Shown here: positions 1,867 to 25,304 of the stretch, piece by piece
Numbering within the stretch: the first letter of the stretch is position 1
How the letters are laid out: each line of letters opens with the position of its first letter
Notes under the pieces: generated by a model
Databases searched by the model: none
What the model saw: only the letters and a program-made list of their open reading frames with translations
What the model was told of the DNA's origin: nothing
From: Rhodospirillaceae bacterium
GTDB taxonomy: Bacteria > Pseudomonadota > Alphaproteobacteria > Rhodospirillales > UBA2165
Assembly: GCA_947467145.1 (NCBI GenBank)
Contig: CANIGJ010000009.1
Span: forward strand, 1-64,000
Length of the DNA stretch: 64,000 nt
Reading direction: 5' to 3'
Position numbers and translations under genes: made by a program

Positions 1867-2775
1867 GGGCTTTGCGACTTTCTTCATCCGGGCTTCGCGG
1901 ATCAGGATATAGAGCGTGCTGCTGACGATGATCACCGTGCCGATCACCGAATATTCGTTGGGCACCTCGTCGAACAGCCACAGCCCGATGCCGAAGGCGT
2001 AAACGATGCGCAGGTAATCGAACGGCAGCACCACCGTGGTGTCGGCCTGGCGTACGCCTTGCGTGATCAAGGTCTGGCCGACGATGCCGGCGAAGCCGAC
2101 GGCGGTCAGCAGCAGCCAATCGTGCAGGCTCGGCCATTCCCACACGAACAGCGCCGGAATGAACGACAGCACCGCGCCCCAGAACGCGTAATAGAACATG
2201 ATGACCATCGTGCCTTCGCTGCGCGCGAGCTGCTTGATCGACACGATGACGATGGACGCGAACAACGCGCCCAGCACGCCGACGATGGCGTCGGGATCGA
2301 AGCCTTCGCCGAACGGGCGCGTCATCAGCAAGATGCCGGAAAAGCCGATCACGGTCGCAATGCCGCGCGGCCAGCCGACGACCTCTTTCAGCACGATCGC
2401 CGCCAGCACGATGCCCCACAAGGGCCGCGAGAATTGCAACGCCATCGCATCGGCGAGCAGCAGATGCGTCACCGAATAGAACAGACACATATTGCCCATG
2501 ATGCCGACGCCGCCGCGCTGCAGATGGCGCCACGGCACGTCCGTGCGATAGATGTTGCGGCCATGCTTGAACGCCAAGGGCAGCACGAACAAGAGGCCCA
2601 CGAAGGAGCGCACGAAGGTGATCTCGAGCGACGGCAGCCGGTCGCCCAGGAACTTCGCGATCACCACCATGAGGGTGAGGAACAGCGCCCCGGTCGCGAC
2701 CAGCGCGGCGCCCCGCACGTTGGGGTTCAAATCGGCCCAGAATTTCCGCAAACTTCTAAACAAAACAGTCGTCAT
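1858..2775 (-). CDS. EamA-family (DMT) transporter
   Basis: An inner-membrane permease of the drug/metabolite transporter superfamily, about 305 residues with two EamA repeats and roughly ten hydrophobic helices. The first begins at GAALVATGALFLTLMVV; the end is a basic tail (EARMKKVAKPSS). Substrate unknown; relatives export amino acids, nucleobases or drugs. The ATG used here lies within the outer end of a palindromic repeat (GTCAT at 2771-2775 read on the other strand), so the gene's 5' end abuts or was reshaped by the element. No clear ribosome site precedes it, and in-frame TTG codons 4 and 8 residues in are alternatives. The 3' end runs into another repeat. Confidence 0.85.
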   Translation of the reverse strand: MTTVLFRSLRKFWADLNPNVRGAALVATGALFLTLMVVIAKFLGDRLPSLEITFVRSFVGLLFVLPLAFKHGRNIYRTDVPWRHLQRGGVGIMGNMCLFYSVTHLLLADAMALQFSRPLWGIVLAAIVLKEVVGWPRGIATVIGFSGILLMTRPFGEGFDPDAIVGVLGALFASIVIVSIKQLARSEGTMVIMFYYAFWGAVLSFIPALFVWEWPSLHDWLLLTAVGFAGIVGQTLITQGVRQADTTVVLPFDYLRIVYAFGIGLWLFDEVPNEYSVIGTVIIVSSTLYILIREARMKKVAKPSS

Positions 2776-2843
2776 GCCCGGGCCCGCGCGCTTTGCGCGC
2801 CATGATGTAAGCGCGCGGTGACCGCGCGACCCGGGCATCCATC
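2771..2843 (+). repeat. Terminal repeat copy A of the GIY-YIG element
   Basis: Reads GTCATGCCCGGGCCCGCGCG, then a CTTTGCGCGCCAT core, then AAGCGCGCGGTGACCGCGCG and finally ACCCGGGCATCCATC. Internally it is a double hairpin. It is an inverted copy of 3152-3225 with few differences. Confidence 0.85.
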
Positions 2844-2845
2844 TT

Positions 2846-3133
2846 TCAGGCCAGCGTATCGTATAGATCGTTCCAGTCCGGATTCATCGAATGGATCAGA
2901 TCGAACTTCCATGCTCGCGACCAATGTTTGATAAGTTTTTCACGTTGAATTGCCAGCTCAATCTCGTCGTGATGCTCGACGTAAACAAGGTGTTTTAACG
3001 CGTAGCGTTTCGTGAAGCCGTCAACGATACCATCGCGGTGTTCCCAGGCACGGCGTTGGATATCGCTCGTCACGCCGACATACAGTGTGCCGCGCGGTCG
3101 ATTGGTCACGATGTAAACCCATCCGCCCTTCAT
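2846..3133 (-). CDS. GIY-YIG nuclease domain protein (UPF0213/YhbQ-like)
   Basis: A 95-residue protein consisting of little more than one GIY-YIG endonuclease domain. The motifs are WVYIV (GIY), TLYVGVT (YIG), the following QRR arginine, a conserved Glu in QREKLIKHW, and Asn in NPDWNDLY. Such small proteins are structure- or sequence-tolerant DNA nucleases of uncertain role and are often present in several copies in alphaproteobacteria. The start was set at ATG 3133 (MKGGWVYI), which gives the family's usual N-terminus; upstream in-frame codons fall in the repeat. Two inverted palindromic repeats enclose the gene closely. A role in moving those repeats is inferred. Confidence 0.85.
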   Translation of the reverse strand: MKGGWVYIVTNRPRGTLYVGVTSDIQRRAWEHRDGIVDGFTKRYALKHLVYVEHHDEIELAIQREKLIKHWSRAWKFDLIHSMNPDWNDLYDTLA

Positions 3134-3151
3134 AATTTGAGGCTCTAGGAA

Positions 3152-3225
3152 GATGGATACGCGGGTCGCGCGGCCGGCCGCGCGCTTAAACAATGGCGCG
3201 CAAAGCGCGCGGGCCCGCGAATGAC
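3152..3225 (-). repeat. Terminal repeat copy B of the GIY-YIG element
   Basis: Begins GATGGATACGCGGGTCGCGC, continues with a GGCCGGCCGCGCGCTTAAACA core and ends GCGGGCCCGCGAATGAC. It is the inverse of the copy at 2771-2843 and lies just upstream of the nuclease gene. Confidence 0.85.
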
Positions 3226-3390
3226 GGCTAAGTCGGGTGTAAGTGACCGTGGATTGCCCCCTCCCGCGCCCGGTGCTCTACTCCGACCAGCATCCGAGGA
3301 GCCGCCGTCATCTCACCCGATTCCACATCTGCCGCCCCGGCTATTACCACCGCAGGCGTCTTCACCCTGCCGCCGCTGATCAAGCGCAAC

Positions 3391-8085: not shown

Positions 8086-8162
8086 TGCGCGGGCGTCTCG
8101 CGCGCACGCGCTCGGGCCCGCGCAAGAAAAGATGGATGCCCGGGTCAAGCCCGGGCATGACG
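8086..8162. repeat. Dispersed repeat, GC palindrome plus GATGGATGCCCGGG unit
   Basis: A variant GC palindrome (GTGCGCGGGCGT ... GCTCGGGCCCGCGC) is joined to GATGGATGCCCGGGTCAAGC and CCGGGCATGACGG. It matches the inner and outer ends of the GIY-YIG element's repeats but with the palindromes rearranged. It lies beside the DUF2971/HEPN island. Confidence 0.8.
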
Positions 8163-9587: not shown

Positions 9588-9656
9588 CGTCATTCCCGCG
9601 AAAGCGGGAATCCAGAACAACGTCCGACTGGATTCCCGCTTTCGCGGGAATGACGG
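9588..9656. repeat. Long inverted repeat CGTCATTCCCGCGAAAGCGG
   Basis: Two 28-bp arms (CGTCATTCCCGCGAAAGCGG plus GAATCCAG, and the reverse) flank a 13-base centre. Each arm also holds its own CCCGC-GAAA-GCGGG hairpin. It could end transcription of the upstream gene, but no T run follows. It is a further palindromic family, different in sequence from the CCCGGG ones. Confidence 0.85.
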
Positions 9657-10080: not shown

Positions 10081-10233
10081 GTCATGGCCGGGCCCGCGCG
10101 CCTTGCGCGCCATTGTGTAAGCGCGCGGCTGACCGCGCGACCCGGCCATCCACGAAAGCGCGATAGCGCGAAAAGACTCATGACGGCGCAGACGCGCCTA
10201 CCGTGGATCCCCGGGTCAAGCCCGGGGATGACG
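10081..10233. repeat. Composite palindromic repeat with nested GC core
   Basis: GTCATGGCCGGGC ... CGGCCATCC encloses the GCGCGCCTTGCGCGCCAT/AAGCGCGCGGCTGACCGCGC core. It continues as the GAAAGCGCGATAGCGCG linker and the CCCCGGGTCAAGCCCGGGG hairpin shared with 1133-1244. It reaches to the stop codon of the next gene. Confidence 0.85.
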
Positions 10234-25236: not shown

Positions 25237-25304
25237 CCTCATCCTGAGCTTGTCGAAGGATGGGCCAGCGGCACCCCGCATGCTTCGACAGGCTCAGCAT
25301 GAGG
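25237..25304. repeat. TGAGCTTGTCGAAGG-family inverted repeat
   Basis: CCTCATCCTGAGCTTGTCGA ... and its inverse CTTCGACAGGCTCAGCATGA enclose a GGCCAGCGGCACC centre. It is the uninterrupted form of the composite repeat at 1758-1866. It lies between the convergent FliL-like gene and egtD. Confidence 0.85.

Follow-up and report, generated by a model that had tools for sequence, protein, structure and literature searches.

A GIY-YIG nuclease gene enclosed by inverted CGTC-tagged REPs in a Rhodospirillaceae bacterium looks like a minimal mobile unit

Ssn proteins, which Chenal et al. are said to have described in Nat Commun in 2025, are reportedly site-specific single-stranded GIY-YIG nucleases associated with NTS/dRS3 repeats. 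The Neisseria enzyme is said to cut single-stranded DNA at the NTS repeat and, through this repeat, to modulate natural transformation. We take the NTS repeat to match dRS3 and hence to be a CGTC-1 REP. Free-standing GIY-YIG homing endonuclease genes are selfish-looking nuclease genes that occupy variable positions.

Di Nocera and colleagues (2013) defined the GTAG and CGTC REPs and left the latter without a dedicated transposase (PMC3733652). CGTC REPs, which occur mainly in Alphaproteobacteria, consist of a CGTC tag, a stem of 8-9 bp starting with AT, a loop of 4-5 bp and a CCA tail, and they form head-to-head dimers; loop variants occur in some species, and dRS3 of Neisseria was classed as CGTC-1 (PMC3733652).

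The window analyzed here is a stretch of 64,000 nucleotides (contig CANIGJ010000009.1, positions 1 to 64,000) from the Rhodospirillaceae bacterium assembly GCA_947467145.1, a genome of 3.74 Mb in 37 contigs. Among named organisms, the nearest relatives of its proteins belong to Alphaproteobacteria. The unit under study and the related repeats of the window are as follows.

1133 to 1241, no strand assigned: REPIN of two inverted CGTC REPs, approximately 109 bp, containing no gene (left end counted from the printed sequence)
1761 to 1866, no strand assigned: CCTC-type REP pair that shares the loop module of the window unit; this repeat type flanks the second GIY-YIG clade
2767 to 2845, plus strand: left inverted repeat, a CGTC-tagged REP (CGTC and stem ATGCCCGGG, enlarged loop, CCCGGGCAT and CCA at 2841), tag outward and CCA towards the gene
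2786 to 2818, plus strand: loop module within the left REP
2846 to 3133, minus strand: GIY-YIG nuclease gene, Ssn-like by homology (open reading frame and Pfam match; ATG start, TGA stop, 95 aa)
3150 to 3229, minus strand: right inverted repeat of the same REP type as the left, tag outward
3178 to 3210, minus strand: loop module within the right REP
8133 to 8161, minus strand: solo CGTC REP
9589 to 9654, no strand assigned: REPIN of the GTCATTCCCGCG type
10081 to 10232, no strand assigned: REPIN, one REP of which has the loop module
25239 to 25302, no strand assigned: CCTC-type inverted REP pair

The two repeats of the unit (79 and 80 bp) align over their whole length in inverted orientation with a score of 103; among 3,000 intervals of 288 bp placed at random in the window, no score was as high (best, 93). 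The stop codon of the nuclease gene directly abuts the inner end of the left repeat, approximately 4 bp from the CCA end of the hairpin, and the start codon lies 16 bp from the right repeat. The open reading frame, the Pfam match, the repeat alignment and the random intervals together confirmed the original prediction of a 95-codon GIY-YIG gene between two inverted repeats; the predicted repeats were real, but the limits of 2771-3225 and the repeat length of approximately 73 bp were slightly short.

The Pfam GIY-YIG domain was detected in the window protein at 49.6 bits against a cut-off of 22.6. Residues Tyr7, Tyr18, Gly20, Arg28, His32 and Glu65, which make up the GIY/YIG, Arg, His and Glu positions, were invariant in 42 relatives, showing that the active site is intact. 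The AlphaFold model of the protein had a pLDDT of 96, and the solved folds nearest to it were those of UPF0213 proteins of the YhbQ/YazA type (1zg2 and 1ywl), with a weaker match to Slx1. These fold matches alone are uninformative on repeats, and the structure-specific cutting of Slx1 serves only as an analogy for the window protein. No defence-system match was found.

Both repeats share the CGTC tag, the AT-initiated stem of 8-9 bp, the CCA tail and the inverted pairing of the CGTC-tagged REPs (PMC3733652), as judged from the sequence and from the DNA fold of positions 2770-2841. In place of a 4-5 bp loop, however, they have a structured loop of approximately 50 nt that folds further. The published survey of this class found no enzyme, whereas in our data such repeats are regularly partnered by a GIY-YIG gene.

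The homologue of the window protein in the gonococcus is 47.7% identical to it, with 91% of the protein aligned, and has inverted pairs of the dRS3 repeat (CGTCATTCCCGCG..GCGGGAAT) on its flanks; this gonococcal gene is presumably the Ssn orthologue. The window gene thus shares with the Ssn family both its homology to a Neisseria GIY-YIG protein and its tie to a repeated palindromic candidate target. Both are small solo GIY-YIG proteins, with inverted repeat pairs also at the gonococcal homologue; the window repeat differs in sequence and has the enlarged loop. The suggestion that no nuclease-driven parallel had been described is not supported, as the Ssn of 2025 reportedly cuts dRS3/NTS and the repeat at the gonococcal homologue is exactly dRS3. 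The window gene belongs to this Ssn-like kind of nuclease and repeat that is already known, and the fresh evidence concerns positional mobility. Our literature search returned no paper joining GIY-YIG genes to REPs; the Ssn paper lay outside its reach, and so this absence proves little.

The predicted likeness to the REP/RAYT layout was a good one. As in REPIN/RAYT systems, an enzyme gene lies between inverted hairpin repeats, gene-less inverted pairs occur elsewhere, and enzymes within one genome are repeat-specific. The window unit differs in that its gene encodes a GIY-YIG and not a Y1/HUH protein, its tag is CGTC (CCTC in related units) and not GTAG, and its genome contains no RAYT (no PF01797 match). 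Homing endonuclease genes resemble it in their variable position; the window unit differs in carrying its presumed target as terminal repeats and in having no intron or intein.

Pattern searches, on which our repeat counts for this genome rest, yielded 38 copies of the CGTC REP pattern GTCATNSCCGG...CCGGSNATCCA, compared with none for the pattern read backwards, and seven inverted pairs of approximately 110 bp (REPINs) among them. The loop module GCGCGCTTTGCGCGCCAT..AAGCGCGCGG was found six times in the genome (control, 0), each time in the loop of a REP, which was CGTC-type for five copies and CCTC-type for the sixth. The window copies of this structured module lie at 1809-1840, 2786-2818, 3178-3210 and 10096-10128, nested in two unrelated REP types. 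This nesting accounts for the solo repeats of the same family that had been predicted elsewhere in the window: such repeats do exist, but the set was mixed; the shared pieces at 1809 and 10096 are the loop module.

Contig 22 of the same genome carries further units of the window gene's family between REPs of another loop type, and the loop measures 5 nt in other units of the genome. A more distant GIY-YIG gene (L001) sits between CCTC-type REPs; the stop codon of this second-clade gene (L001:1456-1806) lies inside the downstream CCTC-type REP, so that the repeat encodes the C-terminus of the protein. No flanking repeats were found at L002, a GIY-YIG gene of a different subfamily in this genome. 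A clade-A copy at the start of C22, on overlapping contig ends (L006:3-206 and L007:3-128), showed an apparent internal deletion with both REPs intact. It may be a derivative that has lost the gene or an artefact of assembly, and we left it out of the analysis because the contig-end overlap makes an assembly error possible.

To survey the association, loci were chosen by protein similarity alone from 385 alphaproteobacterial genomes and from plasmid-collection records, and the complementarity between upstream and downstream flanks was scored (pass, at least 30), with controls shifted by 560 bp. The family of the window gene was flanked by inverted REPs at 88 of 124 loci, compared with 8 of 246 shifted controls (p 1e-45), and 61 of 74 genomes had at least one flanked copy. 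A separate multi-phylum set of 80 loci from named organisms gave 54/78 against 1/147 for the controls; outside Alphaproteobacteria, 15 of 22 were flanked, for example in Neisseria, Gallionellaceae, Nitrosomonadales and Deltaproteobacteria. Relatives of L001, the second GIY-YIG clade, had CCTC-type, CCTCATCCTGAG..CTTCGAAGGATG-like flanking repeats at 21/30 loci versus 1/59, and although gene ends are approximate at some of these loci, the counts stand because the flank test is symmetric. The tag of the innermost upstream hairpin pointed outward in 90 cases, compared with 21 in which it pointed inward, and several loci had a whole REPIN on each side of the nuclease. Small GIY-YIG genes with repeats at both ends, which the original prediction had proposed to look for in relatives, thus recur at numerous positions in numerous genomes, and the association of the repeats with GIY-YIG copies extends across phyla (88/124, 54/78 and 21/30), contrary to the concern that they might have no such tie. 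Approximately 30% of family members had no flanking repeats by the flank test; these may be decayed, have another repeat type or be non-mobile.

REPs are concentrated in intergenic DNA and close to gene ends (PMC3733652) and, as common 3' elements, might fall beside any small gene. We consider such hitch-hiking hardly credible as the source of the pattern, since only 0.7-3% of shifted controls passed versus approximately 70% at the nuclease, and the repeats form matched inverted pairs. We rejected chance flanking on the evidence of the shifted controls and of swaps between copies.

Genes of the DUF559 family (PF04480) likewise often lay between inverted palindromes, here of another type (CCCTCTCCC..GGGAGAGGG; 14/26 versus 2/49 controls; L313-L342 and L179:2317-2727). 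DUF559 may represent a second nuclease-like family with its own repeat partner.

Within multi-copy genomes, the left and right repeats of a copy matched each other (score of at least 30) in 68% of cases, compared with 17% when repeats were swapped among the copies of a genome. In one genome (G123), each copy with flanking repeats had a different, private repeat. Nuclease identity tracked repeat similarity between host families (rho 0.17; null maximum 0.13 in 1,000 permutations), with host history partly controlled. With the same partial control, the nuclease was detected in 55 of 71 REP-rich genomes and in 67 of the 314 others among the 385 (odds ratio 12.7, p 8e-19), where the REP-rich cut-off of at least 10 and the single repeat pattern were our own choices; a nuclease of this profile was undetected in 16 REP-rich genomes.

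A separate enzyme, such as a RAYT or an IS transposase, might move the REPs in trans with the nuclease as a passenger. The shared anatomy of REP/RAYT systems (PMC3733652) and the occurrence of REPINs without a nuclease agree with this explanation, but we regard it as very improbable: the source genome has no RAYT, the presence of RAYTs was not significantly associated with CGTC REPs in the 385 genomes (odds ratio 1.8, p 0.06), and a passenger would not retain a matching repeat type of its own. RAYT as the partner was accordingly rejected for the source genome and was weak in the survey.

Orthologous sites without the unit, whose existence the original prediction had made a test, were found in four groups. 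In Azospirillum lipoferum 4B, a REPIN-nuclease-REPIN arrangement lies between sufB and sufC, and the same gap in A. oryzae, A. ramasamyi and strain B510 has neither the nuclease gene nor REPs. The fnrL site of Sphingobium is occupied in some strains, bare in TYG72, and marked by one near-perfect palindrome in TYG64 and TYG74. At the window's own site, the sister species G385 has both neighbouring genes and lacks the nuclease; a REPIN and a solo REP are present there. In genus g42, the site is occupied in G263, has a single REP in G340 and G405, and has none in G407. Occupied and unit-less orthologous sites therefore both exist, as expected of a mobile unit. Orthologous GIY-YIG genes in the same place without repeats had been named as evidence against such a unit; when this was examined, the orthologous sites without the nuclease carried REPs or nothing.

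The palindrome of TYG64 and TYG74 (L176 and L178) has a CGTC tag at both ends, at the place where relatives carry the nuclease unit, and it looks like the scar of a deletion between repeat arms. The sufB-sufC gap (L046, L180 and L179) is a recurrent insertion spot in an operon: Azospirillum lipoferum and Shinella PSBB067 have a GIY-YIG gene there, and Sphingomonas parapaucimobilis has a DUF559 gene.

Both flanks were common to only 2 of 44 same-genus cross-genome pairs, and comparison of the four sister-species copies with two own-genome copies revealed no similarity of flanks. Unit positions thus change rapidly, whereas the protein is conserved. In Azospirillum, Sphingobium, genus g42 and the sister species, the flanking intergenic DNA has diverged too far between the species available for an exact joint or a target-site duplication to be defined. 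Each case may be one of gain or of loss, and the unit-less sites may have lost the unit instead of never having held it. The presence of a REP or REPIN at several such sites is compatible with copying into existing REPs and equally with gene loss.

The nuclease might instead serve or defend its host as a resident enzyme whose substrate is single-stranded DNA that bears the repeats, for example by tuning the uptake of foreign DNA, with repeats that gather because the pair is co-inherited and not because the nuclease moves them. The reported role of Ssn in natural transformation and the strong purifying selection on the nuclease family (dN/dS mostly 0.04-0.18) are in line with this idea. We nevertheless think it unlikely, given that positions are hardly ever common to congeners (2/44), that several diverged copies with private repeats coexist in one genome (G123), and that only some species carry units within conserved operons such as suf.

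Taken together, a nuclease with a matching repeat at shifting positions across bacteria suggests that the window unit is a minimal mobile unit, as it appears to be, and that the nuclease is probably the long-missing partner enzyme of CGTC REPs. This rests on the unit and its recurrence, the private match of nuclease and repeat, gain or loss at orthologous sites, turnover, selection and the lack of a RAYT in the genome. We think it likely that the compact unit combines a sequence-specific GIY-YIG endonuclease with a hairpin repeat that it recognizes at each end, and that it moves by REP nicking followed by copy-in. By analogy with Neisseria Ssn, which reportedly cuts single-stranded NTS/dRS3, the window enzyme probably cuts its own REP when single-stranded. 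The nuclease would nick its REP hairpin while the DNA is single-stranded (on the lagging-strand template, during repair or during DNA uptake), the cut end would be healed by copying from another REP-bounded segment, and the whole nuclease unit or a gene-less REPIN would be copied into REP-like sites in a homing-like manner. Cleavage would in this case cause the movement, and the nuclease would drive the spread of the repeats.

The positional mobility, the pairing of two clades with CGTC and CCTC repeats, and the loop module may be new. More tentatively, and with somewhat less than even confidence, GIY-YIG nucleases could be the general mobilizing enzymes of CGTC- and CCTC-tagged REPs, as nuclease-only selfish units that spread by hairpin cutting and copy-in in parallel to REPIN/RAYT systems, with DUF559 nucleases and other palindromes as a further parallel class. 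CGTC REPs are widespread short repeats, found chiefly in Alphaproteobacteria and with dRS3 of Neisseria among them, yet a broad survey assigned them no enzyme (PMC3733652). Now that they have a consistent nuclease partner matched to the repeat, how they arose and spread can be tested directly, and the many natural pairs of nuclease and repeat form a ready set for learning how a GIY-YIG protein of 95 residues reads a DNA hairpin.
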